Source of the DNA: Actinomycetota bacterium
GTDB taxonomy: Bacteria > Actinomycetota > CADDZG01 > JAHWKV01
Reading direction: 5' to 3'
NCBI GenBank assembly: GCA_030447305.1
Contig: JAUJPC010000004.1
Coordinates: 217,269 to 259,996, forward strand
DNA length: 42,728 nucleotides
Part shown: in pieces, positions 5,625-40,824 of the stretch
How the letters are laid out: the number at the start of each line of letters is the position of its first letter
How positions within the stretch are numbered: position 1 is the stretch's first letter
Program-made: the position numbers and the translations under genes
Notes under the pieces: model-generated
Seen by the model: only the letters and a program-made list of their open reading frames with translations
The model's database searches: none
Told to the model about the DNA's origin: nothing

Positions 5625-5625
5625 G

Positions 5626-6573: not shown

Positions 6574-6577
6574 CGGC

Positions 6578-10820: not shown

Positions 10821-10859
10821 ACGCGTTCTCCCGTGATTTGCGGCCCGGAGCCGGAACTG

Positions 10860-12610: not shown

Positions 12611-12625
12611 TCTCGTGCTGCCAAA

Positions 12626-14613: not shown

Positions 14614-14639
14614 GATGCTGACCACCTTCCCTGAGAGGG

Positions 14640-14985: not shown

Positions 14986-14990
14986 GGAAA

Positions 14991-17480: not shown

Positions 17481-17732
17481 CTAAGTCAGGAGTTCGAGGA
17501 ACCGAAGGACCAGGGTAACCGCGAAGATACACAGGAGGGGCAAGACCGCTACATTCAGGCACCGAACAGCCCGCAACCTTCGGGGATGGGGGAAAAAGGC
17601 GTTGAGCATCTCCCTCTCGATCAACAGGGCCATGAGAAGGATGATTGCGATTATTCCGGTCATTACGGAGAAGGTTGAGTAGTCGTTGTCTGCAACAAAC
17701 CGGGCCACCTGGCGAGAATAGGTTGCGGTCAA
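17481..17732 (-). CDS. Small membrane protein, two transmembrane segments
   Basis: An 83-aa protein with membrane segments SVMTGIIAIILLMALLIERE and VAVLPLLCIFAVTLVLRFLE and a basic loop (PHPRRLRAVR) between. No family recognised. Its start overlaps the stop of the kelch gene by four bases (ATGA type) and its stop is nine bases before the CPBP gene, so it is translated as part of this operon and probably works with the membrane domain of the kelch protein. Confidence 0.65.
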   Translation of the reverse strand: MTATYSRQVARFVADNDYSTFSVMTGIIAIILLMALLIEREMLNAFFPHPRRLRAVRCLNVAVLPLLCIFAVTLVLRFLELLT

Positions 17733-24441: not shown

Positions 24442-27132
24442 TTAATCGACACGGGTCAAACCGGGAACCGGTCGATGCATAAGCGAGGCCAGTTTCGACC
24501 GGACGCTGGCCAGCAATGGAGAGGCCAATTCCGCAGAAAGAATCCGGGAGCTCGAACTAATCTCGCCCTTCCATACGAGGCTGCCTCCAGGCTTGAAGCC
24601 GGATCCGCTCTGGACTGCCATTCCTTGCGGCAGCTCTATTTGAACCGCAAGGACGTCGGGGTTAACGGTGGCCTGGTTCTGAACCAGTAACCTGTAAGCG
24701 CCACGCGCTACCGCTGCCGGAAGGTGATACTGAAAGACAAGAGTCTGGCTTTCGCCTGAACCGGTCTCCACATACGTGCCAAGACGCCGCTTGCCGAGCT
24801 CCAGGGAAGTTTCAAAATCCGACGTTGGCATGCCGTTGCGCATTACGTGCCGGACCTGTGCCCGTGCCGGTACAAACAGTGAAAGGAAATCTCGTGATCG
24901 TCCGGCGCCGAGGTTGATCCGAGGTCTGGCCCCCCCCACGTAGCTAGGCCATTGGGTGTTGGGTGGCGCTGTGTTCCGAACCGTCACCTTGATCTGCCCA
25001 TCCAATGTCCCATCGAGATTGAGTCTGCCGGTATAGGAGATGTTTCTGGACTTGTAGTAGTCCATCTTGTTCTCGCCGGTGTTCTGGGTTACCAGTAGCA
25101 GGTAGTCACTGCCGGTGTCCTCAACTCGACCACTGACCCCAAAGTCCTGAAGAAGAGCCTGCTCCTCGGGCCGGGAAGAGTAGACAACGAGATGCCTCTC
25201 GGAGATCGCTCGACCAAGGGCTTCGATCACCGCCCTTGAATCGAGGTTTTCGCTGGCTAGGAGCTTGTTCCAGATGGCGGAGCTCATTTGGCCGAGGATT
25301 TCTCGACGTTCGTGGTTATCGTCCCTATAGAGAAAATAGATGCGGTTCAAGGACCAATCGACGATGTTGCCACTCGTGAGCGGCTCGGGGATCCCATCAA
25401 CTTGTACCGGACCGGTCACCCGCAAGAGGTACGAAAGAGCGATGGGATCGACTGCAACGAGGCCGTCTGCGCGTATGCCGGCTTTCTCGTCCAGGTAGGA
25501 CAGGAACATCGGCGCGCCTACCGAAAAATCGGGGCTCATCAAGACGTTTTGCCAGCTGGCGAGACCGCCCAGGGCAAAGTACTGGCGCTGGAACTCAAAG
25601 TCAGCCCGAATGTTATCTATGGAACCATCCGAAATAGGGGGAAGGTCTGGCACTGCCCGAAACTCCCCCAGCTCCAGTCGACCGTTCGTCGCCGAAAGAA
25701 CACCGAATGAAGCCAGATACCCGCCCCTGCCCCGCAGTTCGGCGTTGTTTTCTGCGCCTATGATCCAGGTCCGCGGCCCTTCCGCTCCAAATAGACGGGG
25801 GATGAGAAGAGCTCCGCTGGCTGCGACGCCGGCCTGGCTCCTGGCCTCCGCAACAAGTCTTTCAACATCTTTCCTGCCGCGGGCGACAGTCGGCATCAGG
25901 AAACGATCAGGAGACCGGGCTAGTTCACGCTGCGCCCGTGACAGACGTTCTTGGAGGCGGCCGGCTGGCGACGCTATCCTTTTAAAGGCCTCGATATCTA
26001 CCGAGCCTTGCCGAAGGGGGGCTGTTAAACCTCCCCGGTTACTCAGCGAGTCAAGTACCTGGAGACCGTCCCGTCCCGCGGCAACCAGCTCCTTTCCGGC
26101 TTGGGAAAGGGATGCCGCAACCTCAATGTTTTGTCCCAGTCCGGGAATGGACCTGATTACACGGGTAGGCCACCATGAAAGCCTTCGGCTCGCCCTTGTG
26201 AATGACCAGTCGGCCGCTGTTAGGGCCCGCTCGGCACTTCTTTGCTCCATACGGCCCATGGACTTTCTGGCATCCAGCATGTGCGACCGAGCTTGGACGA
26301 GGTCTGTCCCGGCTAGCGACGCTAGGACGATCCCGGGCGATGCGGCCACTATGATCGACGTGAACCCTACTGTCATCCAAAGCTTGGATCTAAGGAGACC
26401 CTGCCGATGGGGGATCGCTCTGGCTCGGTCCGGAACGAGTTGGCGCCAGGAAGGGTTACGCTCCCACAAGCTCACCGCCAGCCGAATCTTGGTCTCGCGG
26501 TGAGTGAGCAGGAGGAGGACCGTGCGCCAGATCAACCACAAGTCGAAGGTCAATGATCTGTTCGCAACATAGAAGAGGTCATACTCGGGATTTTTGTCAA
26601 AGGGCTCTTCACGGACCCTGCTGAGCTGCCATAGGCCGGTCAAACCTGGACGCACGTTCAAACGCTGGCGGTGTGACCTATCCGAGTACTCCCCAGGGAT
26701 GATAGGTCGCGGGCCCACCAGAGACATGTCCCCCATAACCACATTCCAAAGTTGGGGGAGCTCGTCCAGCTTGAACCGTCTCATAAGGCGGCCCATCGGT
26801 GTTGCCAAGTGTTCGGCGTGACGTCTGTTCACTTCCGACGGGGCGTTGGGTCGTAGCGTTCTGAACTTGTTGACTATGAAGTGTCGGCCATTCTTGCCGA
26901 CCCGAACCTGGCGAAACAATGCAGAGGAACCTGTAGAGAGGCGAGCGGTCCAGGCCAGGATCAGCAGGATCGGCGACATAGCAATAAGCGCGACAAGCGC
27001 TAGCGTGAAGTCGACTGTCCTGGTAACGACTCGATGGCCGCGGCCGGATCTTAAACCCATTCCCGCAGCGGTGGCGATCAGGTTGGAGGGAAGCCGGCGG
27101 CCGCCAGCGTTGTAAGCCATTAGGCGATGCAC
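24442..27132 (-). CDS. Polyprenyl-phosphate sugar transferase fused to DUF4012
   Basis: An 896-aa fusion. Residues about 35-225 are a bacterial sugar transferase (PF02397 type): membrane helix TLALVALIAMSPILLILAW, then VRVGKNGRHFIVNKFRTLRP, RRFKLDELPQLWNVVMGDMS, LVGPRPIIPGEYSDRS and RPGLTGLWQLSRV. It would move a sugar-1-phosphate to undecaprenyl phosphate, the first step of the polysaccharide. After a second membrane helix (about 250-275) comes an outer DUF4012 region, recognised by RTWIIGAENNAELRGRGGYL, IADGLVAVDPIALSYLLRVTG-like sequence and YLLLVTQNTGENKMDYY. DUF4012 proteins are usually separate and common in actinomycete polysaccharide loci; their function is unknown. GTG at 27132 has AGGAGA six bases upstream. 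Transcribed away from the exopolysaccharide operon. Confidence 0.85.
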   Translation of the reverse strand: MHRLMAYNAGGRRLPSNLIATAAGMGLRSGRGHRVVTRTVDFTLALVALIAMSPILLILAWTARLSTGSSALFRQVRVGKNGRHFIVNKFRTLRPNAPSEVNRRHAEHLATPMGRLMRRFKLDELPQLWNVVMGDMSLVGPRPIIPGEYSDRSHRQRLNVRPGLTGLWQLSRVREEPFDKNPEYDLFYVANRSLTFDLWLIWRTVLLLLTHRETKIRLAVSLWERNPSWRQLVPDRARAIPHRQGLLRSKLWMTVGFTSIIVAASPGIVLASLAGTDLVQARSHMLDARKSMGRMEQRSAERALTAADWSFTRASRRLSWWPTRVIRSIPGLGQNIEVAASLSQAGKELVAAGRDGLQVLDSLSNRGGLTAPLRQGSVDIEAFKRIASPAGRLQERLSRAQRELARSPDRFLMPTVARGRKDVERLVAEARSQAGVAASGALLIPRLFGAEGPRTWIIGAENNAELRGRGGYLASFGVLSATNGRLELGEFRAVPDLPPISDGSIDNIRADFEFQRQYFALGGLASWQNVLMSPDFSVGAPMFLSYLDEKAGIRADGLVAVDPIALSYLLRVTGPVQVDGIPEPLTSGNIVDWSLNRIYFLYRDDNHERREILGQMSSAIWNKLLASENLDSRAVIEALGRAISERHLVVYSSRPEEQALLQDFGVSGRVEDTGSDYLLLVTQNTGENKMDYYKSRNISYTGRLNLDGTLDGQIKVTVRNTAPPNTQWPSYVGGARPRINLGAGRSRDFLSLFVPARAQVRHVMRNGMPTSDFETSLELGKRRLGTYVETGSGESQTLVFQYHLPAAVARGAYRLLVQNQATVNPDVLAVQIELPQGMAVQSGSGFKPGGSLVWKGEISSSSRILSAELASPLLASVRSKLASLMHRPVPGLTRVD

Positions 27133-27167
27133 GATTGGTCTCCTGTTAGTGTGACTTTCTATTCGTC

Positions 27168-27240: not shown

Positions 27241-27377
27241 TTCTGGCGAGGACGTCCGGGGTCTTGGAGTGCGGACAATTGTCGGCTGAGCGACGCGTCT
27301 AGGAGTCAGTACACCGCGGGAAGCTAACGACGGTCGTTAGATAATGCGTGACTACACACATCGAAGGTGAATCGCGA

Positions 27378-28412
27378 ATGCTTAAAGCTGCCAGTGCGTT
27401 TCCCAATCAACTCATCGATAAGTACGACCGAGACGGTTTTCTTGATGTGCTCACACAGTTCCCCAGCCAACTGCGACGAGCACTGCTGCTGAAGGCTGAG
27501 CCTTCCAGGGAACCCAAGTCAGTGGTTGTGGCCGGGATGGGCGGGTCTGCGCTTGGAGGACAACTACTAGCGGATCTTGTCCGAGAGCAGCTCGGAGTAC
27601 CGCTGATCATTCATCGGGATTACTTCCTTCCGGAGTTCGTCGACGAAACAAGTCTTGTGGTAGCCGTCAGCTACTCGGGCGACACGGCGGAAACCATCTC
27701 AGCCCTTGAGTCGGCCATCATAAGAGGCTCCGACATTGTCACCATTTCCTCAGGGGGGAAGCTCAAGGTGATGGCCGACAGTTACGGCTTCCCGCACATC
27801 TGTATCCCCCGAGGACTTCAGCCGCGGATGGCGTGGGCCTATGTGGCTTTGTCCCTGGTCAACGTTCTTCAGGCGGCGGAGCTTTTTGAGCTGCAGGCTG
27901 AGGGACTAACGGAGCTCATCGACGGGTTGGCTCATGAGTACCATCCCGCACATCAGAATGGAACGATGGAGATGGCTTGCGCCCTGCACGGCTTGATCCC
28001 GGTGTTCATCAGCGCCTCCTCGACGAGCATTCTTCCGTATAAATGGAAGATCAACATCAATGAGAACGCGAAGCAGCTCGCCTTCGCGAACTGCTTGCCC
28101 GAGTTCAATCACAACGAGATGACCGGCTGGCGTTATCCCGAGGAATCCATCAAGAGGTTAGCCCTTGTCTTCATTAGGACCGACTACGAGGGCGACAGCA
28201 TCACCAGGCGAATAGAGATCACCAAGGAAATTCTCCGAGGACAACCCGGGGACGTGCTCGAATTCAAGGCTCCCGGCCGGACAAAGATTGACCAACTCTT
28301 CGGATCCATCTACGCCGGGGATTTCATGAGCTACTACCTCGCCCTTTTGAACCGTGAGAACCCAGCACCGGTTGATGCTGTCGAGCACCTTAAGGTGCGA
28401 CTTGCCGGTTAG
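27378..28412 (+). CDS. Bifunctional phosphoglucose/phosphomannose isomerase
   Basis: A SIS-fold sugar-phosphate isomerase that interconverts fructose-6-P with glucose-6-P or mannose-6-P, supplying nucleotide-sugar precursors. SIS motifs: VVAGMGGSALGGQLLADLV, VVAVSYSGDTAETISALESA, ISSGGKLKVMADSYG, then the bacterial PGI C-terminal domain with INENAKQLAFANCLPEFNHN and EHLKVRLAG. ATG at 27378 is chosen for GAAGGTGA upstream; a GTG at 27348 would add ten residues. Length about 344 aa, normal for the family. First gene of the exopolysaccharide operon. Confidence 0.85.
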   Translation: MLKAASAFPNQLIDKYDRDGFLDVLTQFPSQLRRALLLKAEPSREPKSVVVAGMGGSALGGQLLADLVREQLGVPLIIHRDYFLPEFVDETSLVVAVSYSGDTAETISALESAIIRGSDIVTISSGGKLKVMADSYGFPHICIPRGLQPRMAWAYVALSLVNVLQAAELFELQAEGLTELIDGLAHEYHPAHQNGTMEMACALHGLIPVFISASSTSILPYKWKININENAKQLAFANCLPEFNHNEMTGWRYPEESIKRLALVFIRTDYEGDSITRRIEITKEILRGQPGDVLEFKAPGRTKIDQLFGSIYAGDFMSYYLALLNRENPAPVDAVEHLKVRLAG

Positions 28413-29073
28413 TCATGCGGGAGCCTCGTCGGAACGGCTGGACGACCGTCCTCCCCTGAAACGCCTTGAGGTCGAGCGGATCCTATTTGTGTGCAGCGCC
28501 AACATCTGCCGGTCCCCAATGGCTGTGAAGTTCCTGCAGTCAAGGCTCGAGACAGCCCCTCATGTGGAAGTCAAGAGTGCCGGCTTCCTTCAGAGCGGGA
28601 GGCCCGTGGCCAGAGAAGTCCTCGGGACAATGCGGCGGTGGGGGCTGGACTTGAGCAGCCACCTCTCATCTTCCGTCGATGCAGCGATCGAGACGTCTCC
28701 CGACCTCATCCTAGTGATGACCAGACAGCATCTCCGATCGCTAGTAGATCTGGATGGCCGGCTGTTTCCCCGCACTTTTACCCTGAAGGAATTCGTTCGG
28801 CTGGCCGAGGTCGAGGGTCACCGCGCCGGGCAGGAAGACATCGAAACCTACGTCCGGCGGGTTAGCGCAGGGCGAACTTTCTCAGCGCTGCTTTCCCCGG
28901 ATGACAGCGATATCGCCGACCCGATAGGGCGCCGGAAGAAGGCCTATGACAGGTGTGCCGAAGAGATTGAAACGCACACTTCTAGTATCGCCACGCTGCT
29001 TTATCCCGAGCACAGTAGGGAGCCGACAAACCCGCCGGCCGGCGGACCGGCCTCCTCAGAATGGATTAATTGA
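28402..29073 (+). CDS. Low-molecular-weight protein tyrosine phosphatase
   Basis: The CX5R loop is clear (FVCSANICRSPMAVKFL) and the general acid is in SDIADPIGRRKKAYDRC. Beside a Wzc-type kinase it would remove phosphate from the kinase's tyrosine tail and so control polysaccharide chain length or export (established for Wzb/Wzc pairs). The start is uncertain: the frame opens at GTG 28354 and has ATG 28375 inside the isomerase gene; TTG 28402 has AAGGTG before it and the least overlap. The insertion KEFVRLAEVEGHRAGQEDIE and the C-terminal tail make it longer than the usual 150 residues. The stop overlaps the kinase start as ATGA. Confidence 0.87.
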   Translation: MPVSHAGASSERLDDRPPLKRLEVERILFVCSANICRSPMAVKFLQSRLETAPHVEVKSAGFLQSGRPVAREVLGTMRRWGLDLSSHLSSSVDAAIETSPDLILVMTRQHLRSLVDLDGRLFPRTFTLKEFVRLAEVEGHRAGQEDIETYVRRVSAGRTFSALLSPDDSDIADPIGRRKKAYDRCAEEIETHTSSIATLLYPEHSREPTNPPAGGPASSEWIN

Positions 29074-30848
29074 TGGATACAGAACAGTCCGGAGTGGACG
29101 TGCGCTCCTATCTCAAGATCCTCTCCCGGCGGCGATGGTTGATGTTGGCGACAGTCTTGGCCGTCGTCGCCTCCACCGCCCTGGTCAGTTGGCGCCTTAG
29201 GCCTATTTACGAAGGTGTTGCCAGGGTAGAGGTCCAGCCGACCTCATCTTCTTCGGGTGAGGCGAGCAGGGTTCTTGAGAGCCTGGTAGATCCAACCCGC
29301 GGCTTGCAAACGCAGGTAGAGCTCGTGCGGAGCCAGGCGGTTCTCAGGCTTGCGGCCAAGGAACTTGGCCTTCCCTCAACCGATGATCTACAGAAAAGCC
29401 TTGCCGCCACGCTTCTACAGGACACACAGATCGTGGAAATCCGCGTAGAGCATGAACGGCCGGAAGAAGCCAGTGATTGGGCGAACGCAGTTGCAAACGC
29501 TTACATAACGTTCCGACGGGAACGAGCCCTGGAGACCAGCCTCTCGGCCAGCGAAGCCATTGCCCGCGATATCGAGAGCGTTAAGAGCCGCATCACCGAA
29601 ATGGATCTCAAGGCACAGCAGGATCCGCAGGCGGCAGCACTCCTTAAGTCTGAGCGGGATCGTTCGGTAGCTCAACTAAACGCCTTGGAGGCGCAGCTTC
29701 AGGTCCTGCCCGATGCGGAGGCAGTGCAGCGGGGAGGGGGAACCATCATCTCTGCGGCAGAAACACCAACCGTCCCGGTCCGCCCAAGGAAAATGCTCAA
29801 CCTTGCCATCGCAATGGTGGTGGGCGTACTGCTGGCGCTCGGCATGGCATTCCTGGCGGAAAACCTTGACGATCGCATGAAGAATCCGGAAGAGGTGGAA
29901 GCGCATGTTGGCGCCCCAATACTGGGATATATCCCACTGGTCAAGGAATGGGAAGGCGCTAATCATTCCAGGTTGGCAATTCAAAGTGAGACCGCCTCGG
30001 GTGCAGCTGAGGCTTATCGAACACTCAGGACCAATTTGCGCTTCGTCTCCCTGGAGCGTCCTCTGAAGACCCTGCTCGTGACGAGTGCCGTCGCCGAAGC
30101 TGGAAAAACTACCTCCGCGGCGAACCTTGCGGCAACGCTTGCGGAAGGAGGTGCCAAGGTGGTGTTGGTTTCCGCGGATCTAAGAAGACCGACCCTCCAC
30201 AAACTCTTCGGACTAACAAATTCGCGAGGCTTGGTGGACGCCCTCAACCCCGATTTTCCTCTGGAGCTCGCGCTGCAAAACGGGGTACCCAACCTACGGG
30301 TCCTGTCGGCCGGAGGGCTTCCTCCAAACCCCACCGAGATCCTGGGATCTGCCCGGTTTGACCAGCTCCTCTCGGAACTTCAAAGCTTCACCGATCTTGT
30401 GGTTATCGATGCTCCACCGGTGCTCGGACTTGGGGATTCGAGCGCGCTAGCTTCAAAGGTGGACGGGATTCTTTTCGTAGTGCGGACGGCCGGAGTGAGC
30501 AAGCGGGAGGTTTCTCACGCCAGTGACCAACTCCGTAAAGCTGGCGGTAAAGTCATAGGCTGCTTGCTTAATGCAGTGGAGACCGAACAAGACTACGGCT
30601 ATTACTACCATTACTACTACTCGCGGTATCAGGAAGATGGTTCGGAGACGTCTTCACCTTCAGGCGTCGCCGCCTCGGAGGGTGTCAGCAAAACCTCGGT
30701 GACCCTACAGGGTCAAAATTTTGAGTGGAACCCACTCTCTAAAGAGACTGTCTCCCTTGCTTCCAATCCATCCCCTTCGGACAACGGCACCAGCCAGCGG
30801 CGTTCCAGGGGTTTGGGTAGACGGAGTGGGAAGTCTGAGGACATCTAA
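29073..30848 (+). CDS. Wzc-like chain-length/tyrosine autokinase
   Basis: A 591-aa BY-kinase with both domains on one chain. Wzz part: membrane helix at about 23-41, long helical periplasm-type region with coiled coil, second helix at 245-265 (LNLAIAMVVGVLLALGMAFL) after the PxxP region VPVRPRK. Kinase part: P-loop TSAVAEAGKTTSAANLA (first glycine of the usual GEGKT replaced by Ala), Walker A' VVLVSADLRRPTL, Walker B LVVIDAPPVLG. The tyrosine cluster YGYYYHYYYSRY at about 509-520 is the autophosphorylation region; about 70 further residues rich in S, T and P follow it, an unusual tail. ATG at 29073 is preferred over TTG 29070. Confidence 0.88.
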   Translation: MDTEQSGVDVRSYLKILSRRRWLMLATVLAVVASTALVSWRLRPIYEGVARVEVQPTSSSSGEASRVLESLVDPTRGLQTQVELVRSQAVLRLAAKELGLPSTDDLQKSLAATLLQDTQIVEIRVEHERPEEASDWANAVANAYITFRRERALETSLSASEAIARDIESVKSRITEMDLKAQQDPQAAALLKSERDRSVAQLNALEAQLQVLPDAEAVQRGGGTIISAAETPTVPVRPRKMLNLAIAMVVGVLLALGMAFLAENLDDRMKNPEEVEAHVGAPILGYIPLVKEWEGANHSRLAIQSETASGAAEAYRTLRTNLRFVSLERPLKTLLVTSAVAEAGKTTSAANLAATLAEGGAKVVLVSADLRRPTLHKLFGLTNSRGLVDALNPDFPLELALQNGVPNLRVLSAGGLPPNPTEILGSARFDQLLSELQSFTDLVVIDAPPVLGLGDSSALASKVDGILFVVRTAGVSKREVSHASDQLRKAGGKVIGCLLNAVETEQDYGYYYHYYYSRYQEDGSETSSPSGVAASEGVSKTSVTLQGQNFEWNPLSKETVSLASNPSPSDNGTSQRRSRGLGRRSGKSEDI

Positions 30849-31085
30849 GGCCAGTCCTCGGTTCGCCGTCTCCGAAGATTTCTCTTGGTATGCCTGCCCC
30901 GTTGGAGAAGAAGGGCATTTACACAACTTTGATTGTGTCCACGCATACTTAGTTGTAGACTTCTTTCTGCTGTGGGGCGGGTCGGCGATCGGCTCCGGAA
31001 ACGCGTAAATCGACGAAGACAGCATTGTCTTGTTGGTGCGGGCGTTTCTTGTGACGAAGGCCCTTTGAGCAAACTGGGAGATGAC

Positions 31086-31778
31086 ATGTCGCACCGCTAC
31101 GAGGGGCCCGCGGGAACTGCCTACTGGGAGTATCAGCGTCCGATCGGTGAATTAAGCGCCGATCTTGATTGCTTCAAATTTGAACCCTACATATCCGGCA
31201 ACGACAATGTGGTGGATTTTGGCTGCGGTGGAGCCTTCATGTTGGAGAGGCTCACGGCGGCAGGCAAGATTGGAATTGAAATTAACGACCTGGCTCGTGA
31301 AGAGGGGATTCGTCGTGGCTTGGATATTAGGTCAAGTCTTGATGAGGTAGATCCGCAATGGGCTGATGTAGTCATTTCGAATCATGCCTTGGAGCACGTC
31401 CATGAACCCTATGGGACGCTAAAAGCCGTAGGCGCGGTTCTTCGTCCGGGCGGAACCCTTGTCTTGTGGCTTCCGATTGATGATTGGCGTTTGCACGTCA
31501 AACCTCACCCTGATGACGTGAATGGTCATCTGTACACCTGGACGCCGCAGCTCCTTTGGAACCTACTAACCGAACTGGGTTTCGAAGTTGAAACGGTGCG
31601 GGTGGTTTCCCGTGCTCACCTGCCGGCCGGTAACCGGTCCTTAAACCGATACAACAAGCTATTCGCCATTCTCTCGTCATTTTGGAGCCGCCTCAGAAAA
31701 AGGCGCCAACTGTGCGCGGTTGCCCGTAGGCCCCTTAGTGCTTTGGGGGGGTGTGAGCTGTCAGAGAACCGAGCGTAA
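31086..31778 (+). CDS. Class I SAM-dependent methyltransferase
   Basis: A 230-aa protein with motif I NVVDFGCGGAFMLERL, the acidic end of strand two at GIEIND, motif with DVVISNHALEHVHEPYGTL and post-motif VLRPGGTLVLWLPIDD, as in Methyltransf_11/23 enzymes of polysaccharide loci. ATG at 31086 follows GGGAG; an earlier in-frame start at 30933 would add 51 residues with no sign of conservation. A 237-base gap separates it from the kinase gene and may hold a processing or promoter site, though I see nothing definite. It probably methylates a sugar precursor or chain end. Confidence 0.8.
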   Translation: MSHRYEGPAGTAYWEYQRPIGELSADLDCFKFEPYISGNDNVVDFGCGGAFMLERLTAAGKIGIEINDLAREEGIRRGLDIRSSLDEVDPQWADVVISNHALEHVHEPYGTLKAVGAVLRPGGTLVLWLPIDDWRLHVKPHPDDVNGHLYTWTPQLLWNLLTELGFEVETVRVVSRAHLPAGNRSLNRYNKLFAILSSFWSRLRKRRQLCAVARRPLSALGGCELSENRA

Positions 31779-31813
31779 CAGTTTCTGAAACCCCTCCCCC
31801 GCCCTTTGACCGC

Positions 31814-31847
31814 GCCGACGACAGACACGCAGATCGTCGCCGTCGGC
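31814..31847. promoter_or_regulatory. Inverted repeat before the polymerase gene
   Basis: GCCGACG (31814-31820) and CGTCGGC (31841-31847) form a 7-bp stem, with GACGA/TCGTC inside as an alternative pairing. It lies in the 95-base gap between the methyltransferase and the Wzy-like gene. A leader structure or weak terminator is possible. Confidence 0.3.
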
Positions 31848-31873
31848 GGCTACACCGCTGCCATAGTCATCAC

Positions 31874-33361
31874 TTGGGGAGCGTCCGCACTCTCACTTCC
31901 TCACGACGACTACTTTGTTTTTTGCGCGCACCCAACTGGGACTTACGTCTCGGGATGTTTTTGGTGGCATTCATGTTGGTCGTAACGGCGGCTTCCATAC
32001 GAAATCCAACCTACGGCGTGATAGCAGTTCTTCCGCTAATCGCGTTAGTCATGTTCCTCATTCTTCCTCGAGTGAGCTGGCCCATCCTTCTGGTCGGAAT
32101 CGTGGCATTCATCCCATCTTCAACTTACGGACTGACGGATGGTCAAGCCAGGCGCACGCTTTACAACCTGGGTACCGGTCAGTTGCCGATTAGTCCTTTC
32201 GAACTAGGAATAGAGGCCCTTGCGGCGCTCCTACTGTTCACCGCTCCAAAAACCTTGGTTCGAAGAGTCGGGCCAGGACTTGAGTTTTCATTCCTTGCCG
32301 CGATCTACCTGGTGCATGTCCTCGTGGCGGTTGCGTCAGGTTCTCCGATGTTCGATGCACTTACCGGCAATGGCGGCCGTCTGATCGTTCTGGCTGCTGC
32401 TTCATACACTGTGGTCTCCACCACACTGACGAACTGGTCACAACTGCGGACGTTCTTCTCTTCAGTTGCTTGGATGGGGATTCCGCTGGCCATCTTCGGT
32501 CTGTCTCGCTTCTTCCTGGGTCAGGGGGATCCGGCCAACCCTTACCAGAACTACTCGGGTATCGCGTTAAGGCTGACCTACTTTGAGGCCGCGTATGCGG
32601 TGGTGCTGGCGTTCTCCTTCTACTGGTTCGCCTCCAAAGCGGTGGAAAAGGGTGCCGGTTCGCTTCATTCGAGGCTCCAGAACGCAGCATGCTCGGGACT
32701 TTGTTTCTTGACCATTCTTCTCAGCTTCCGCAGAACGAACTGGCTAAGCCTGATCGTGGGGATGATGCTGATCTATCTCCTTGTGCGCGACCGCCGAAGT
32801 CGGTTTTTGGGGGCGATCAGTGTTGCTGTGGCCATTGTGGCGGTCATCTCGTTATCAGCCCAGCGCCAATTGGGGCCGGTCCAAGACCGGATTTCGTTCT
32901 CAGTAGCGGCTGAACGAGACCAACGAACACGGGAAGTACAGCTCGCACTGCGAGAAATACGTAAGCATCCTCTTGGTCTAGGTCCACTGGGCTACTACAG
33001 CGGTAGTCCCGGGTTGGGGTGGCCCGCACCACCCTCCATAGTTCATAACGCTCCAGTCTGGCTCGGTCTTAAGACCGGTGTACCGGGCATGGCTCTCCTG
33101 GTCTTGATACCTGCTCACTGCATGTGGTTGGTAAGGGACGCTTCCCGGCGACAGAAGCGCTTCACGCCGCAGCCGTATGGAGCCGTCTTGGCCGGGCTAT
33201 CCGGCTTTTGGATTACGAACATGCTTTATGGAACTCCTCTGCTTGAGGCGAGGCTTGCCGTCCTTTTTGGCGTATGGGCGGCTGCTTGCTTCCGGTTCCC
33301 TTTACTCGCCTGTCGGGGAGCAATCGGGCAATCTGAAAGTCAGCAGGAGATCCATGGCTGA
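31874..33361 (+). CDS. O-antigen ligase/Wzy-like polysaccharide polymerase
   Basis: A 495-aa protein with about 12 membrane segments. The Wzy_C/O-antigen ligase region is seen at ILLSFRRTNWLSLIVGMMLI, the large outer loop (LREIRKHPLGLGPLGYYSG) and SIVHNAPVWLGLKTGVPGMA with the conserved VHN. It joins repeat units on the outer face of the membrane or ligates the finished chain. The frame starts with TTG at 31874; the next ATG, 31955, falls just before the first hydrophobic segment, so the first 27 residues may not be translated. The end overlaps the flippase start by 8 bases. Confidence 0.8.
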   Translation: MGSVRTLTSSRRLLCFLRAPNWDLRLGMFLVAFMLVVTAASIRNPTYGVIAVLPLIALVMFLILPRVSWPILLVGIVAFIPSSTYGLTDGQARRTLYNLGTGQLPISPFELGIEALAALLLFTAPKTLVRRVGPGLEFSFLAAIYLVHVLVAVASGSPMFDALTGNGGRLIVLAAASYTVVSTTLTNWSQLRTFFSSVAWMGIPLAIFGLSRFFLGQGDPANPYQNYSGIALRLTYFEAAYAVVLAFSFYWFASKAVEKGAGSLHSRLQNAACSGLCFLTILLSFRRTNWLSLIVGMMLIYLLVRDRRSRFLGAISVAVAIVAVISLSAQRQLGPVQDRISFSVAAERDQRTREVQLALREIRKHPLGLGPLGYYSGSPGLGWPAPPSIVHNAPVWLGLKTGVPGMALLVLIPAHCMWLVRDASRRQKRFTPQPYGAVLAGLSGFWITNMLYGTPLLEARLAVLFGVWAAACFRFPLLACRGAIGQSESQQEIHG

Positions 33362-34904
33362 GTCCTTCTCCGAGCGAATGACAGCCAAGGCGATGTGGAC
33401 CCTTGTCATGTCGTTATTCCCCATGATTGCCGCTATCTCGCTCGTCCCCGTAGTCCTTAGGCATGTTGGAAACGTCCAGTACGGCATTCTGCAGGTTGCT
33501 CTGGGCGTCTCCGGGCTGCTCGCAATGGCGGACATGAATTTGGGGCTGGCCCTGACCCGGGCTATTGCAGGTGCGGCCAGCCTAGAGCGCAACGAGGAAT
33601 TCCTTTCGTTGGCCAGAGTTGGCATGGCCATATTTCTGACAATTGGGCTGGTCTTAACGTGCTGCATTCTGTTCGCTGCTCCCTGGCTTGCCCGACATGT
33701 GGTCAACGCTAAGGGAGTGGATGCGGGCTTGGCCGTGGACACCCTACGGCTTGCCGGCTTCGCGTTGTTTCCTCTGTTCCTGAATACATACGCCATCGGC
33801 ATCGCCAACGGATTACACCGGTACATCGTCCCTACAGCCATCAATTCAGCCAACTTGGTGACCACCACCGTAGGTAATGCTCTTCTGGCGATCAATGGGT
33901 CCTCCGTCGTTCAGCTGATGCTCTGGAATGCCGTAGTGTCCTATGTCGCAATTGCGGTCTTACTGTCATATGTTGGCCGGCTTTCGCCGGCGGGTTCGCT
34001 TAGGCCCGGGTACTCAAGAGAACAAGCTCGAGGGCTTCTCACGTTTGCCTCGTTTTCATGGTTGGGGCGATTGTCAGGATTGGTTGCCTCGGTCGGAGAT
34101 CGTCTCGTGGTCTCTTCGACGCTGGGAGCCGCCGCTGTGCCTGCCTACGCGATCCCAATGGGAACGCTTAGATATTTTGCCTCCGCGGCGGGAACTCTTG
34201 GCTCTTCGCTCCTCCCGGTTGTTGCTCACGCGGATGCACGCGCAGACAGCAAATCCCTTAGGGCGTTGTACATTCGTTCGGCTCGAATCTTTGCAACAAT
34301 TGCCGTCGGCCTTCCGTTATTTGCCGTAAGCGGCTCTCACATCCTCATTACGGCCTGGCTGGGCCCCTCCTTCAGTCGAGCGGCTCCAGTAATGATCCTC
34401 GGGGGCCTTTCCGTTTGTCTGACCATACTCACCATGGTCCCCAGTTACCTGGTTGATGGGCTGGGAAAGCCGCAGCTCACCAGCATTTTGCGCTTGGCGC
34501 AGGTGGCTGCCGGTTTTGTGCTGGCAGTTCCGCTCCTAAATGCGTGGGGAGCGGCTGGGGCCGCCGCCGCATTCCTGATACCGGCCCTTGCAACGGTGCC
34601 CCTATTCCTTCGTTTGGTTGAGGCACGCTTTCTCGGGATGGGCGCTGGAGAGGCAGTGCAAGAAATTTACCTGCGCCCTGCACTGGTTGGGTCGTGCGTA
34701 GTGTTGACGGGCTTAGCTCTGGAGCGTCACGCATCCTTTGGATCACTCTCCGGCGCTATGGTCTTCCTGGCCATATTGACGATGGCCTACGGTATCCTCG
34801 TGGTTCTATTCCGGCCGGTGCCGCTTAAGGAGCTGCGCGTCCTGTCCCGGTCCTTCAAGCATCTGAGACGACCGGCTTCCCTCGACCGGTCGGTTCCTAA
34901 CTGA
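33354..34904 (+). CDS. Wzx-like polysaccharide flippase (MOP/PST family)
   Basis: A 516-aa protein with about 14 membrane helices. N-terminal MTAKAMWTLVMSLFPMIAAI and RHVGNVQYGILQVALGVSG, internal LSYVGRLSPAGSLRPGYSRE then LLTFASFSWLGRLSGLVASV with DRLVVSSTLGAAAVPAYAI, are typical of PST flippases that turn lipid-linked repeat units across the membrane. ATG at 33354 with AGGAGA just upstream is chosen; the frame is open back to 33177, but that part overlaps the polymerase gene in another frame. One base lies between its stop and the next gene's GTG. Confidence 0.85.
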   Translation: MAESFSERMTAKAMWTLVMSLFPMIAAISLVPVVLRHVGNVQYGILQVALGVSGLLAMADMNLGLALTRAIAGAASLERNEEFLSLARVGMAIFLTIGLVLTCCILFAAPWLARHVVNAKGVDAGLAVDTLRLAGFALFPLFLNTYAIGIANGLHRYIVPTAINSANLVTTTVGNALLAINGSSVVQLMLWNAVVSYVAIAVLLSYVGRLSPAGSLRPGYSREQARGLLTFASFSWLGRLSGLVASVGDRLVVSSTLGAAAVPAYAIPMGTLRYFASAAGTLGSSLLPVVAHADARADSKSLRALYIRSARIFATIAVGLPLFAVSGSHILITAWLGPSFSRAAPVMILGGLSVCLTILTMVPSYLVDGLGKPQLTSILRLAQVAAGFVLAVPLLNAWGAAGAAAAFLIPALATVPLFLRLVEARFLGMGAGEAVQEIYLRPALVGSCVVLTGLALERHASFGSLSGAMVFLAILTMAYGILVVLFRPVPLKELRVLSRSFKHLRRPASLDRSVPN

Positions 34905-34905
34905 C

Positions 34906-36135
34906 GTGAAAGTCGCGTTGGTTTCCGAGCTAGTCCCGAACCAAGCTGGGGGGCTACTCAATCATGTCTTTGGCCTATCGGAGGAACTGGCTCGCCAAGG
35001 CCATCACGTTGAATTAGTAGGGCGAGCCGGTTCCTCAATTTCCGAAGACCAGCGCTTTCTCCATTATTCAGGTCTTCTTCAAAGCAGGGCCAGGGGTTGG
35101 AAGGAAAGCCACCTAAAGGTGATTCTGATGGATCGCCGTCGATACGAAGGACTCGCCGTGAGGCAGGTGATCCGAAGTTTACTCAGGAACAACGACGTCG
35201 TTCACTACCATGGGCAGTACGTAACCTGTTTAATGGGATTGCCGCCAAGAGCCATCCCGACGTTCCACGACTACGCTGGCGTGTGCCCGGTCAAGACGCT
35301 CTTCCGGGGCGAGAATCAGTGTGACACCACGAATTCCCGTGATTGCGGGCCTTGCTATTTCGCAAACAACATCGGTCCGTTAAGAGAAAGCGTCAGCGCC
35401 CGACAGGTTGATAGATGGCGATCGGAAGTACTCAAATCGATCGAAGGTCGCGTCAACATCTTCGTTTCGAATGCCCAGCTTGCCCTTTGGGAGCGTTACC
35501 TTGATGCGCCGATTCACGCTGAGGTCATCGAGAACTTCATCGACTATCGCTCAATCAAGGACATCCAAGGAATCTCCAAGCTTGAGGCGCGGCGACGCCT
35601 CGAGTTGCCGCCGGGAAGGCCTATCGTGTTTCTAGCATCGGCTCCTGCGGCTTACAAGGGAACCACGCAGTTCCTTCGGGAGTGGATCAAGTCACCTTCA
35701 GAGGCCCTCACGCTCGTCGGGGGGTGGGAAGCATTGGAGCCTTCCGTCTCAACCTCTGAGTCAAACGAGGTAAGGCCGTTGGGCTGGCTCCCTCGCGAAA
35801 GCGTCCTTCGATACATGAAAGCCTGCGACGTTTTTGTGATGCCCAGTCTCTGCCCCGAGCCAAGCCCCACGGCAGTCCTTGAAGCCAGCGCCCTCGGCAT
35901 ACCGGTAGTTGCGATGGATCGAGGAGGGATTCCCGGGATGGCCGGGAACGCTCATGGTCTGGTTCGCGTGGCAGATTCTCTTGTGGGAGTTTGCGGGGAG
36001 ATACGAAGAATTCTGACCGAGCCGGACCTTTCGAGTTTGGCAAGCCCTTCTGTACCGATGTCCGCTGAGGCGGCGGTCAAGCGGTTGGTGGGCGTCTATT
36101 CAGATGCGCTTCAGAAAAAGGAAGAGAACTCGTGA
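34906..36135 (+). CDS. GT4 glycosyltransferase with a cysteine-rich loop
   Basis: A 409-aa GT-B enzyme. The N-terminal half begins MKVALVSELVPNQAGGLLNH and contains TFHDYAGVCPVKTLFRGE with a later NSRDCGPCYF, a cysteine cluster seen in a subset of GT4 enzymes. The nucleotide-sugar half shows LASAPAAYKGTTQFLRE, RPLGWLPRESVLRYM and PEPSPTAVLEASALGIPVVA with the Ex7E glutamates, the first in PEPSP and the second in VLEAS. GTG start. The sugar transferred cannot be told. Its stop overlaps the following methyltransferase start. Confidence 0.83.
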   Translation: MKVALVSELVPNQAGGLLNHVFGLSEELARQGHHVELVGRAGSSISEDQRFLHYSGLLQSRARGWKESHLKVILMDRRRYEGLAVRQVIRSLLRNNDVVHYHGQYVTCLMGLPPRAIPTFHDYAGVCPVKTLFRGENQCDTTNSRDCGPCYFANNIGPLRESVSARQVDRWRSEVLKSIEGRVNIFVSNAQLALWERYLDAPIHAEVIENFIDYRSIKDIQGISKLEARRRLELPPGRPIVFLASAPAAYKGTTQFLREWIKSPSEALTLVGGWEALEPSVSTSESNEVRPLGWLPRESVLRYMKACDVFVMPSLCPEPSPTAVLEASALGIPVVAMDRGGIPGMAGNAHGLVRVADSLVGVCGEIRRILTEPDLSSLASPSVPMSAEAAVKRLVGVYSDALQKKEENS

Positions 36136-36851
36136 GTCACTCGGAATCAGTTCGGATACTGCCGCAGTCACAAGTCGTGGACAGGATCTCCTTCTTGAGG
36201 GATTCAGCCAGGGGCAGGAGCGTGATTCATCTGGGATTTTTCGACGTCGGCTGGCGCGAAATGCAGACCCAGTATGGTGCCTGGTTGCACGCAGAGCTCG
36301 CCAAGGTGGCCAGTTCGCTGATTGGCATCGACTACGACGCCGAGGCCGTCCGTGCGGCAAATTCCGAAGGATACACAGCATATGCAGCCGACTGTCGGGA
36401 TCCGGAGGCCATCGAGGCTCTAGGGATAGAGCCGGCCGACGTCGTCATAGCGGGAGAGTTGATCGAACACCTGGACTCCCCTGGACCTTTCCTGGACGGA
36501 GCCCACTCCCTCGTCAAGCCGGGAGGAAGCTTACTCATCACCACCCCCAACGGTGTTTCTCCAACGGGCGTGATTGCGGCGGGGAGGGGATACGAGGCCG
36601 TCAACTCGGATCACGTCGCTCTCTATTCGTGGTTTACGCTCCAAAACCTCTTGGAGCGCCACGGTTGGGAGGTGAGTGAGTGCCTGACCTACCTGCTTCC
36701 CCAAAGGGCCACGGGCCGTCCGCTGACCTCACTGTCGGTTGGGGACCTCATCGCCAGAGGATTGATCTACTCACAGCGCCGGCTGGCACGGTGGCGGTCA
36801 CCGTTCCTGGCCGATGGGCTGATCATGGTATGTCGGGAGCTGAACGCATAA
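36132..36851 (+). CDS. Class I SAM-dependent methyltransferase
   Basis: A 239-aa protein. Motif I is modified: RSVIHLGFFDVGWREM in place of a DxGxGxG, while the strand-two acid (LIGIDYDAEAVRAAN), the D in AADCRDPEAIEAL, VVIAGELIEHLDSPGPFLDG and LVKPGGSLLITTPNGVSP are conserved as in Methyltransf_23 enzymes. The GTG start overlaps the stop of the glycosyltransferase before it (GTGA), so the two are coupled; it may methylate the sugar added by that enzyme. This is inference. Confidence 0.78.
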   Translation: MSHSESVRILPQSQVVDRISFLRDSARGRSVIHLGFFDVGWREMQTQYGAWLHAELAKVASSLIGIDYDAEAVRAANSEGYTAYAADCRDPEAIEALGIEPADVVIAGELIEHLDSPGPFLDGAHSLVKPGGSLLITTPNGVSPTGVIAAGRGYEAVNSDHVALYSWFTLQNLLERHGWEVSECLTYLLPQRATGRPLTSLSVGDLIARGLIYSQRRLARWRSPFLADGLIMVCRELNA

Positions 36852-38069
36852 GTGGGCATCCCTTACGGAAGTCAGGCCTCAGGGGTGACGGAGCCCGAAT
36901 CGTCCATTACGCCGACGAGCCGAGAGGTTACGGGAGTGGGCTTGATGCCCCCTGGGGCGAGGGTGCAAAAGCCAAGGCTCGCCGTGCTCGTCAACATGAT
37001 TGCGCCCTATCGCCAGCCTCTGTTTGAGGCCCTGTCCGACCGGTTCGAGGTCACCGTCATCGAAGGGGGGATTGAACCAAACCGTAAGGAATGGAAAGAG
37101 CGGCATGAAACAGCATCGATATCAATCAGAACTCTCAGACCGGTCAAAGTGCGCAAGGTCAAAAAGTCTCAGGGGGGAGTCTTCGATTATCGATTTATCG
37201 ACCTGAACCCCGGCTACATGCTGGCCCTATGGAGGATGCGTCCGGCCGCAATCTTCAGTTCCGAGATGGGGTTCAGAACGCTGTGCGCCTTGATCTACGG
37301 GACTTTGACGGGGTGCCCCGTATCGATATGGTCGGGTGGTACTCGCTATACCGAGGCGGTTATCTCCCTGCCCCAACGGCTGGTCAGGGGGATAGTGAAA
37401 CGCTGGGCCCGTTCGTGGATCACAGTGGGATCTGAATCGACCAATTACCTTCTCTCTCAAGGTGTCCGACGGGACCGCATTCTTCAGGTCCAGAACTGCG
37501 TTGACGAGAGTCTCTACTCGCCATCCGTTGAGCCAAGCCTGGACCTTGCACCACGGCCGGTTCTCCTCTATGTCGGTCAGTTGATTGGCCGCAAGGGGGT
37601 GGACAAGCTGCTGGAGGTTTGCTCCGACATTCAGCGTTCGGGGCTGAGTTTCACAACCCTGTTGGTCGGCCAGGGTCCGGAGGCTCCCCGGCTCAAGCAG
37701 CTGGTTGAGGAACTTGGAATGCGCAATGTTGAGTTTCAGCCTCCTCAGAGACCGGAGGCCATGCCGGCGATTTACCGAAGTGCCGACTTCCTGGTTCTTC
37801 CGACCCTTGTCGATATGTGGGGGCTGGTTGTAAACGAAGCTCTGCTGTCCGGACTTCCCGTCATCTGCTCAAAATACGCGGGCTGCTCAGCCGACCTCTT
37901 GGATCCCATCAACGTCTTTGATCCTCACGACAAGGAGGACTTCGCCAAAGCGGTCCGGCGAGCTCTTGCGGGCGAGATAGCGCCTGCCACAGCTTCACAA
38001 ATGAAGTCTATTCGGGAGGTTGCCGACGAAATTGGGTCAATGCTGGCGGCAAGGCTTGGGTCATGCTGA
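36852..38069 (+). CDS. GT4 glycosyltransferase
   Basis: A 405-aa GT-B enzyme. The core starts at about residue 40 (PRLAVLVNMIAPYRQPLFEA); the first 40 residues are polar and unlikely to be folded, so a later start is possible, though GTG 36852 directly after the previous stop is kept. C-terminal half: VLLYVGQLIGRKGVDKLLEV, LLVGQGPEAPRLKQLVEELG, VLPTLVDMWGLVVNEALLSG, with Glu in NEALLSG and glycine-rich LPVICSKYAGC. It would add a hexose or related sugar to the lipid-linked chain. Overlaps the next gene by seven bases. Confidence 0.83.
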   Translation: MGIPYGSQASGVTEPESSITPTSREVTGVGLMPPGARVQKPRLAVLVNMIAPYRQPLFEALSDRFEVTVIEGGIEPNRKEWKERHETASISIRTLRPVKVRKVKKSQGGVFDYRFIDLNPGYMLALWRMRPAAIFSSEMGFRTLCALIYGTLTGCPVSIWSGGTRYTEAVISLPQRLVRGIVKRWARSWITVGSESTNYLLSQGVRRDRILQVQNCVDESLYSPSVEPSLDLAPRPVLLYVGQLIGRKGVDKLLEVCSDIQRSGLSFTTLLVGQGPEAPRLKQLVEELGMRNVEFQPPQRPEAMPAIYRSADFLVLPTLVDMWGLVVNEALLSGLPVICSKYAGCSADLLDPINVFDPHDKEDFAKAVRRALAGEIAPATASQMKSIREVADEIGSMLAARLGSC

Positions 38070-39235
38070 AGGTCTTGGCCGTCCACAATTACTACCATCA
38101 ACGCGGCGGTGAAGACAGGGTCTTCGAGGACGAGGTCAACCTTCTAAAGTCCCGAGGTCACCGGGTAAGTCAATTTATTCGGCGGAATTCGTCTCCAGGA
38201 CAACTACGCAACCCGCGAGCGGCTGCCGGATCCGTCTGGAGCCGCAGTTCTTTTAATGAGCTGCGTGCCTTACTCAGGTCGGAGCAGCCCGACGTCATGC
38301 ATCTTCACAACACGCTGCCGCTGATCTCTCCTTCCGCCGTTCACGCGGCCAGAGCGGAGCGTATTGCGACGGTCCAAACGCTTCACAATTACCGCATCTT
38401 TTGTCCCAATGGCATGTTTTTTCGTCAGGGGCGCCCCTGTGAGGACTGTTTAGGCAAATTCCTTCCATGGCCCGGGATACTCCATTCCTGTTATCGACAG
38501 AGCCGAACTGCGACAACCGCGGTCGCATCGATGCTGGCGACACACCGTGCGATCGGAACCTGGTCTTCGGGCGTAAGCCGCTACATAGCGCTTTCGGAGT
38601 TTTCGAGATCGAAGCACATCGAGGGAGGTCTCCCGGCAAGCAAGATCGCGATCAAACCGAATTTCGTCCTCGCTGATCCGGGCGAAGGACGGGGGGAGGG
38701 CGGATTCGCTCTCTATGTGGGGAGATTGTCGCCTGAGAAGGGGCTCCGCACCCTGATGAGGACTTGGGAGCAAGTAGGGTCTCGCCTGCCTCTCTACCTG
38801 GTTGGAGATGGACCACTTAGGGCGGAGGTGAGCGCCTTCGCAGCCGGTATTCCATCCTGTCGGCTTCTTGGACCGATGAGCGGAGATCAAACTCTGGAGC
38901 TGATCGGCGCAGCGGCGGCTCTAATCGTACCGTCCGAATGTTACGAGGGATTCCCACGAGTAATCGTAGAGGCGCTCGCCAAAGGTACGCCGATCGTGGC
39001 TTCCGAGATAGGCGGGCTGGGCGAACTGGTTACCACCGGACATACGGGCATCATGTTCCGTCCGGGGGACGCGACCGATCTACTCGAGAAGGTGGAATGG
39101 CTGATTGGCCACCCAGGTACACATGACCAAATGCGCTCAAACAGCCGCACAGAGTACGAATTGAAGTATTCGGCGGAGGAGAATTACAGGACGCTGCTGA
39201 GCATCTACGACGAGGCGATCGAATGTACTCGGTGA
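38063..39235 (+). CDS. GT4 glycosyltransferase with a cysteine-rich loop
   Basis: A 390-aa GT-B enzyme. N-terminal half: LAVHNYYHQRGGEDRVFEDE (the GGEDRV block is typical of one GT4 subgroup), DVMHLHNTLPLISPSAVHAA, HNYRIFCPNGMFFRQGRPCE followed by DCLGKF and HSCYR, giving four conserved-looking cysteines. C-terminal half: FALYVGRLSPEKGLRTLMRT, LYLVGDGPLRAEV, and VPSECYEGFPRVIVEALAKG with both glutamates of the Ex7E motif. The cysteines recall the cluster in the enzyme at 34906. ATG start, overlapping the gene before. Confidence 0.86.
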   Translation: MLKVLAVHNYYHQRGGEDRVFEDEVNLLKSRGHRVSQFIRRNSSPGQLRNPRAAAGSVWSRSSFNELRALLRSEQPDVMHLHNTLPLISPSAVHAARAERIATVQTLHNYRIFCPNGMFFRQGRPCEDCLGKFLPWPGILHSCYRQSRTATTAVASMLATHRAIGTWSSGVSRYIALSEFSRSKHIEGGLPASKIAIKPNFVLADPGEGRGEGGFALYVGRLSPEKGLRTLMRTWEQVGSRLPLYLVGDGPLRAEVSAFAAGIPSCRLLGPMSGDQTLELIGAAAALIVPSECYEGFPRVIVEALAKGTPIVASEIGGLGELVTTGHTGIMFRPGDATDLLEKVEWLIGHPGTHDQMRSNSRTEYELKYSAEENYRTLLSIYDEAIECTR

Positions 39236-40053
39236 CGCACGATTCTACGGTCGTCTTGCCCACTCCAGCAGATGTACGGCATGAGGTCCTTGGGACGCTC
39301 GTAAGCTGCGTCAACATCGACGAAGCGATATCGACGATCGATGCATGGATTCAAGATGGTCAGCGGCAATACGTCTGTGTCGCCAACGTCCACCTGGTGG
39401 TAGAGGGCTGCAGGGATCCGAAATTGAGAGGGATTCTGAGCGACAGCGGCATGACCGTACCGGACGGAGCCCCTCTAGCGTGGATCCTGAAATGGTCGGG
39501 GCGTCGTGAGACTGGAAGGGTGCGTGGGCCGGATCTGCTTCCCCGTGTTTGTGCACACTCAGTTCCCCGGGGCTACAGCCACTACTTCTACGGGGGAACC
39601 GAAACCGTGGTGGAGGACCTCATAAGGCGTTTGCGCTGTGTCTCTCCAGGACTCAAGGTGGCCGGAGCTTGCACACCGCCGTTTAGGGACTTATCGCCGG
39701 AGGAGGACGCGGCCGCCGTTCGGGAGATAAATGACGCCAATCCGGACATAGTGTGGGTCGCCCTGGGGGCTCCGAAGCAGGAACGCTGGATGGCAACCCA
39801 TCGTGCGGCGCTCAGCGCCCCCGTCCTGGTCGGGGTAGGTGCAGCCTTTGATTTCCTTTCCGGTCACAAACGGGAGGCCCCTTTATGGATGCAGCAAATA
39901 GGTATGGAATGGCTCTTCCGGCTCTGTTCAGAACCCTCTCGCTTATGGCGTCGCTACCTGGTTACCAATCTGGTCTTCCTCGCGGCGGTTTCGTGGAGAC
40001 TAATGCGTTCATTTCCACCGACGCTTTACCGGATGCTCCAGAAGAGTGCTTAG
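39223..40053 (+). CDS. WecG/TagA/CpsF-family glycosyltransferase
   Basis: A 276-aa enzyme of the GT26 family. Conserved blocks: TLVSCVNIDEAISTIDAWI, VCVANVHLVVEGCRDP, MTVPDGAPLAWILKWSG, RVRGPDLLPRVCA, HYFYGGTETVVEDLIRRL, and DIVWVALGAPKQERWMATHR, VGVGAAFDFLSGHKREAPLW. Members move N-acetylmannosamine-type or other sugars onto the lipid-linked primer; the exact donor is not visible. Its ATG overlaps the end of the GT4 gene by 13 bases. The C-terminal helix LVTNLVFLAAVSWRLM suggests membrane association. Confidence 0.88.
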   Translation: MYSVTHDSTVVLPTPADVRHEVLGTLVSCVNIDEAISTIDAWIQDGQRQYVCVANVHLVVEGCRDPKLRGILSDSGMTVPDGAPLAWILKWSGRRETGRVRGPDLLPRVCAHSVPRGYSHYFYGGTETVVEDLIRRLRCVSPGLKVAGACTPPFRDLSPEEDAAAVREINDANPDIVWVALGAPKQERWMATHRAALSAPVLVGVGAAFDFLSGHKREAPLWMQQIGMEWLFRLCSEPSRLWRRYLVTNLVFLAAVSWRLMRSFPPTLYRMLQKSA

Positions 40054-40815
40054 GTGAGCTTAGGAGACGGGCAGCCCCTCACATTCTCGGTAATCACTTG
40101 CACTTGGAATAGTGAGCCGTACCTCGAGGATTCAATCCAGTCCGTTCTTGGACAGGATTACCCGTACGTCGAACTGGTTTTCGTCGACGGCGGCTCAACC
40201 GACGGGACGCTGAAGCGAATCAGGGGGCTTGACCACCCGCATCGTCTTCTGGAGAACGTGAGCGGAGGAATCAGTCGCGCAATGAATACAGGAATCGCTG
40301 TGGCGAACGGGGAAGTGATTGCTCATCTGCACTCGGATGATTACTACCTGCGATCCGACACTCTTTCCACGGTGGCAAGGCACTTTCAGTCAAGTGAGCG
40401 CAGATGGCTGTTCGGTCGGATAGTCAGAGACGTGGAAGGCACACTGCACGGGGAAGGATTTGAATGCCCCGCTTACACCTACGCACGATTACTTCGCAGA
40501 AACTTTATTCCTCACCCTGCGACATTCGTTAAGCGCGACCTTCTCGCAAGTGTCGGGGGGTTCGACACGAGCCTGAAGTATGCAATGGATTACGACCTGT
40601 GGCTCAGGCTGGGGAAGGTTGATGAACCGATTCAGATGGAGGAGGAGCTCGCCGTCTTTCGCGAACACAGTCGCAGCCTGTCCAGCACTAACCGGCTTCC
40701 AGCACTAAGGGAAGACCTGCTGGTGAGGCTTGGGTATGTTGGCGGCAATCCTCTGACGCGAACGGTTCATCGGTCACGCTATGTGGTGAGGCGTCATAGG
40801 CTCAAGCGAGTGTGA
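40054..40815 (+). CDS. GT2 glycosyltransferase
   Basis: A 253-aa GT-A enzyme. LTFSVITCTWNSEPYLEDSI, QDYPYVELVFVDGGSTDGTL and VIAHLHSDDYYLRSDTLSTV carry the GT2 nucleotide-binding residues and the DDx motif. RNFIPHPATFVKRDLLASVG and DTSLKYAMDYDLWLRLGKVD are the WcaA/colanic-acid-type acceptor region. GTG start directly abuts the TAG of the WecG-type gene. It would add one residue of the repeat unit inside the cell. Confidence 0.86.
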   Translation: MSLGDGQPLTFSVITCTWNSEPYLEDSIQSVLGQDYPYVELVFVDGGSTDGTLKRIRGLDHPHRLLENVSGGISRAMNTGIAVANGEVIAHLHSDDYYLRSDTLSTVARHFQSSERRWLFGRIVRDVEGTLHGEGFECPAYTYARLLRRNFIPHPATFVKRDLLASVGGFDTSLKYAMDYDLWLRLGKVDEPIQMEEELAVFREHSRSLSSTNRLPALREDLLVRLGYVGGNPLTRTVHRSRYVVRRHRLKRV

Positions 40816-40824
40816 CACGGCAAT

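Follow-up and report, generated by a model that had tools for sequence, protein, structure and literature searches.

Within the window, i.e., the whole 42,728-nucleotide stretch of DNA analysed, an open reading frame of 896 codons runs on the minus strand from a GTG at 27132 to a stop at 24442 (Table 1). A sequence-only reading of this DNA had these coordinates right but did not give the strand. As in the monotopic phosphoglycosyl transferases (monoPGTs; Bac_transf, PF02397), such as PglC, WbaP, and WcaJ, the N-terminal portion of the encoded protein possesses the full domain along with LDELPQ and PRP motifs. The Pfam match covers residues 38-209 (E 8.8e-53, 178.9 bits, model positions 2-178 of 179), and a hydrophobic segment seen by hydropathy within it, at about residues 42-60, corresponds to the re-entrant helix site of this monotopic enzyme class. 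DUF4012 (PF13196) then is matched at residues 451-599, over the full model (E 7.2e-29, 101.6 bits), with both scores far above Pfam's curated cut-offs. Bac_transf would thus lie inside and DUF4012 outside, the single helix at residues 253-271 carrying the chain across.

Table 1. Features of the fusion gene and of the adjoining cluster (window positions; LCP, LytR-CpsA-Psr)
Feature	Position	Strand	Basis or remark
Whole gene: Bac_transf - transmembrane helix - helical stalk - predicted LCP-like domain (DUF4012) - C-terminal beta module	24442..27132	-	896 aa
Shine-Dalgarno site, AGGAGA	27139..27144	-	6 bases upstream of GTG
Monotopic phosphoglycosyl transferase domain (Bac_transf, residues 38-209), motif LDELPQ	26506..27021	-	Pfam
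Single transmembrane helix, residues 253-271	26320..26376	-	Hydropathy; helix present in AlphaFold2 model
Helical stalk, membrane to predicted LCP-like domain, residues 272-445	25798..26319	-	AlphaFold2 model
Predicted LCP-fold domain, residues 446-692, includes Pfam DUF4012 (451-599)	25057..25797	-	Pfam plus AlphaFold2/Foldseek
C-terminal beta module, about residues 690-871	24520..25064	-	AlphaFold2 model plus Foldseek
Divergent polysaccharide cluster	27348..41703	+	

That a priming enzyme and DUF4012 are found on one chain, as had been claimed, is borne out by the intact 896-codon frame, by the Pfam matches, and by the start signal. The fusion is genuine, that is, rather than an artefact of assembly, as the same Bac_transf-DUF4012 fusion is seen in another genus of the same family (L116; 46% identity over its length) and as the GTG is preceded by a proper start signal. 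A stop and start near residue 230 in relatives had been named as the mark of such an artefact; L116 reads through this region in one unbroken frame. Internal start codons that might be used lie at residues 253-295, none of them with a Shine-Dalgarno site upstream, and G+C by codon position is steady along the gene, junction included.

The divergent cluster encodes a PGI-like protein, a LMW tyrosine phosphatase, a Wzz/BY-kinase, methyltransferases, a Wzy/ligase-type polymerase, a flippase-like protein (so called from a weak MatE match below cut-off), three GT4 and two GT2 proteins, and a WecG/TagA/CpsF enzyme, with no other Bac_transf found within it. The genome as a whole has two Bac_transf domains, the second of which adjoins another DUF4012 fusion gene (below), as well as two ordinary LCP genes.

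In B. longum 105-A, DUF4012 is present as a stand-alone protein (BL105A_0406) in a capsule/EPS locus, where the priming gene cpsD is directly followed by the DUF4012 gene and wzz, i.e., the same domain but with enzyme and DUF4012 as two separate genes (PMC5412050). Adjacent priming and DUF4012 genes, in that order, are seen also in L062, L080, and L098, and in L302, L311, and L321 of a second phylum (probably Chloroflexota), in which Bac_transf lies directly upstream on the same strand. Among 100 loci with DUF4012, each spanning up to 15-19 kb, a separate Bac_transf is found within about 15 kb in 26, versus about 1 expected by chance given that 40 of the same genomes, with about 143 Mb between them, have 102 Bac_transf matches, that is, about 24 times more commonly than expected. 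A Wzz/BY-kinase homologue is present in 37 of these loci.

Fused priming domains and their catalytic state

MonoPGT fusions reportedly have been catalogued in a survey, O'Toole 2021. The fusing of further domains to monoPGTs, giving 'bifunctional monoPGTs', is a known theme (PMC10942596). The partner here is an extracytoplasmic, DUF4012/predicted LCP-like domain that is located behind a separate transmembrane helix, and such a partner was not found in the open literature searched.

DUF4012 itself is widespread, being present in 111 of 396 sampled genomes of the window's own phylum and in 85 of 251 of the second, and it is listed as well among CPR families (PMC6744442). The majority of DUF4012 proteins carry no fused enzyme, in keeping with the earlier description of the domain as usually separate. 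The survey of DUF4012 neighbours that had been proposed nevertheless uncovered, besides L116, fusions within the taxonomic order in which the N-terminal partner is instead a PNPT (Glycos_transf_4, WecA/MraY fold). One of these is the second DUF4012 gene of the window's own genome (G000:C3, L113:6588-9482, minus strand), from which an intact Bac_transf gene is about 1.2 kb distant and divergent; about 13 kb from it a further PNPT gene lies in two frames and perhaps is broken (G000:C3:304143-304588; L268, L269). Others come from two genomes of the window's genus (L114, L115), from another family of the same order (L117), and, as a partial copy truncated where its contig stops, from L086. Like the window's protein, these have a priming-type membrane domain N-terminal to DUF4012, but that domain is of an unrelated, polytopic fold.

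In a phylogeny of 99 DUF4012 proteins, the window's protein, L116 (also Bac_transf), and L117 (PNPT) group in one clade (SH-aLRT support 100%), and the remaining PNPT-DUF4012 fusions group in a separate one. As both enzyme types thus occur within a single clade, unrelated N-terminal enzymes have replaced one another on outer domains that are close relatives. No Bac_transf or PNPT fusion was seen among the loci examined in the second phylum (251 genomes). One chain there does combine a GT2 glycosyltransferase, with transmembrane helices, N-terminally with DUF4012 (L307:4227-7865, minus strand), and another, of 967 aa, continues from DUF4012 into a series of TPR repeats (L318:4720-7620, plus strand). 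Long open reading frames in further members of the class and phylum were set aside as candidate fusions, as most of their N-terminal parts are without a Pfam domain and may be read-through. Viral contigs yielded no relative, nor did a scan of named genomes yield a close one, its matches being dominated by ordinary Bac_transf genes found via the motif WNVxxGDM.

The fused priming domains differ in what they have kept. The window's Bac_transf resembles solved WbaP and PglC, and retains both the Asp-Glu dyad (LDELPQ) and the PRP motif (VGPRP), with some flanking motifs (DPR, SGR) altered; among the Bac_transf domains compared that are no shorter than 120 aa, the dyad motif is kept in 27 of 27, the window's included. 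The dyad-containing stretch is missing from L116, a single sequence whose source genome is 64% complete. Catalytic residues are absent as well from all four complete PNPT-DUF4012 fusions, the losses being of the aspartate pair and GD motif in L113-L115, and of the GD motif plus one asparagine in L117. Unfused PNPTs of complete sequence, by contrast, retain aspartate pair, GD motif, and asparagine. A D-to-N change in the 'DNMNG' of fused PNPTs was dropped as a sign of catalytic loss, as the unfused L082 and L142 display the same change. The remainder of the decayed domains still is conserved across genera, and an intact Bac_transf gene is found close to L117 just as it is to L113.

With the dyad kept here and catalytic residues lost there, the window's fused Bac_transf probably primes, i.e., transfers sugar-1-phosphate onto undecaprenyl phosphate, and the fused domains of its relatives probably merely recognise or anchor. 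Linked catalysis therefore cannot be the general reason for fusion, given what L116 and the complete PNPT fusions have lost. As the relatives have lost priming residues while keeping the outer domain, what selection preserves may instead be carrier recognition or tethering. Of the earlier suggestion that fusion ties DUF4012 to the priming step or to the lipid carrier, it is thus the carrier side that has gained, through two unrelated priming folds, one GT2 fusion, and the roughly 24-fold excess of Bac_transf neighbours, and the stress on the priming reaction that has been weakened.

These same observations bear on whether neighbouring genes might simply have been joined by chance, to no function, the N-terminal domain being a decaying membrane anchor. 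The frequent adjacency of priming and DUF4012 genes would be in line with this, as would the five relatives from which catalytic residues have been lost. Such an origin is very improbable, however, considering that unrelated priming folds have been used, that the catalytic motif is intact in the window's protein and its cluster has no other Bac_transf, and that the rest of the decayed domains has been conserved. Improbable too, if somewhat less so, is that the outer domain serves in regulation, that is, by sensing chain state or wall precursors and controlling priming through the single helix (chain-length or start control). A cytosolic enzyme joined to an outer domain by a single-pass link is what such regulation would look like, and Wzz/BY-kinase neighbours are frequent, but control of priming would be pointless in L116, L113-L115, and L117, whose fused domains are without catalytic residues, nor would it apply to the majority of DUF4012 proteins, which are not fused to an enzyme.

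Predicted fold of DUF4012

AlphaFold2 models, built with an alignment of 99 sequences, reach a pLDDT of 93.6 for the ectodomain and of 94.1 for residues 446-692 alone. Among solved structures, the best 30 Foldseek matches of this DUF4012 domain model are all LCP glycopolymer transferases, including TagV, TagU, TagT, Cps2A with octaprenyl pyrophosphate, S. aureus LcpA, and A. oris LcpA. The top match, 3pe5, has an E of 8.9e-7, with TM-scores to LCPs moderate at about 0.45-0.54 (the best, 0.54, being of the query), and there then is a sharp drop to the next match, an Hsp70 with a probability of 0.21. The model of the whole ectodomain likewise matches LCPs, and further matches oligosaccharyltransferase (OST) ribophorin I and the M1 aminopeptidase N-domain, similarities which, by exclusion, likely stem from the C-terminal beta module (24520-25064, minus strand). 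No match with E up to 0.001 was found in a viral structure library.

DUF4012 thus is computed to have an LCP-like fold, one that is invisible to sequence searches and which would appear to be new here: the open literature mentioning DUF4012 gives neither fold nor function for it, and searches of it returned nothing on PF13196 or on LCP-priming fusions. The domain search and structure prediction that had been proposed for the 896-aa protein accordingly supplied Bac_transf, DUF4012, and this LCP-like fold, and, as a correction to the earlier reading, DUF4012 is not featureless, given that a fold can be assigned to it.

The sequence route from DUF4012 to LCP failed. Pfam's LCP family (PF03816) is not matched by the 896-aa protein, and comparison of DUF4012 with LCP profiles by hhalign is not significant (probability about 2%), the sole match consisting of 38 columns around a 'VDGVI.VDP.AL..LL..TGPV' stretch. 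Searching PDB sequences with the DUF4012 alignment returned coiled-coil noise and nothing else. With the LCPs (PF03816; TagTUV, Cps2A, LcpA), the fusion protein shares predicted fold, N-terminal membrane anchor, outer domain, and a Gram-positive-type polysaccharide context; unlike LCPs, it lacks a profile match, has not clearly kept the arginine set, has other invariant residues, and possesses an extra C-terminal beta module.

As for those residues, E465, R467, G470, G471, D556, D562, Y599, K689, and D691 are near-invariant, with E465, R467, D556, D562, Y599, K689, and D691 kept in more than 90% of alignment rows. By hand mapping, E465 (94%) and R467 (96%) sit in the loop that follows strand one, and the E/D..R pattern is present also in those DUF4012 sequences of the other phylum that were viewed. 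The conserved arginines upon which LCPs depend are R149 and R266 in A. oris LcpA (PMC6381275), and R267, R362, and R374 in Cps2A (PMC7831098). Following the third strand of DUF4012 there is no conserved arginine, the best position, R492, being R in 14% (mapped by hand). As there is no sequence-level match and the LCP arginine set is not clearly kept, DUF4012 is described here as LCP-like, and may work like an LCP, but it is not filed as a member of that family.

Possible roles at the lipid carrier

For the protein as a whole, the most likely reading, at about even odds, is of an LCP-like outer domain held on the same chain as a priming phosphoglycosyl transferase, with both ends acting upon the same undecaprenyl-pyrophosphate-sugar bond. 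Inside, going by its intact catalytic motif, Bac_transf would load a first sugar-1-phosphate onto undecaprenyl phosphate. The divergent, Wzx/Wzy-type cluster, going by its gene content, would then build, flip, and polymerise the chain. Outside, DUF4012, with its predicted LCP fold, would bind the undecaprenyl-pyrophosphate-linked glycan, and most likely would release that glycan or instead pass it to a surface acceptor, in so doing acting upon the very bond made by its own N-terminal half. LCP enzymes, that is, cut the linkage made by the NDP-sugar::lipid phosphate transferase (PMC7831098), such that one half would make a bond and the other would afterwards break or transfer that same bond. 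Fusion would thereby ensure that the two steps serve a single glycan, out of the several that share the carrier. That DUF4012 handles the growing or finished chain had been suggested already, and it is the 'finished chain' which the predicted glycopolymer transferase fold fits. Against this mechanism are the 2% hhalign link, the arginine set that is not clearly kept, the moderate TM-scores, the catalytic residues missing from the fused priming domains of relatives, and the two ordinary LCP genes.

Some of the same points would be expected were DUF4012 instead a non-catalytic binder of carrier-linked glycan, i.e., a receptor or scaffold holding the chain near a polymerase, co-polymerase, or true LCP. 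An LCP fold without a clear LCP arginine signature, ordinary LCPs in the same genome, and relatives whose fused priming domains have themselves turned non-catalytic all are consistent with such a binder. The charged residues E465, R467, D556, D562, K689, and D691, however, are near-invariant across very diverse sequences in a manner that is active-site-like, with E/D..R extending to the other phylum, leaving a purely binding role unlikely, if far from negligible.

A catalytic role may be extended, more tentatively than is the tethering mechanism itself, to the family as a whole. DUF4012 possibly represents, alongside the LCPs and in distant kinship with them, another family of glycan ligases acting outside the cytoplasm, one with an LCP fold but its own active site (of E465/R467 plus K689/D691 type) and widespread in at least two phyla. 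Fusion then would join the first and last lipid-linked steps of one polysaccharide on one chain, and inactive priming folds would have been reused as carrier-recognition modules. The step of polysaccharide attachment or release lacks an assigned enzyme in many such clusters, and a fold apparently shared with LCPs, together with fusions to priming enzymes, makes DUF4012 a candidate for this step in surface polysaccharides, and one that can be tested.

Elsewhere in the window, remnants of IS110-type and IS3-type transposases, recognised by eye from translations (13555-15849), sit between a Tad-like pilus cluster (4695-12643) and surface genes. These remnants suggest a mobile or accessory island, and the congeners G002 and G003 are without the window's DUF4012 gene. 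Adjoining the surface-protein genes is a Rce1-like (CAAX-type) intramembrane protease (16605-17471, minus strand), and a Kelch/galactose-oxidase-like protein (17729-19936, minus strand) has an unusual layout, with an early-set domain and a hydrophobic C-terminal part.
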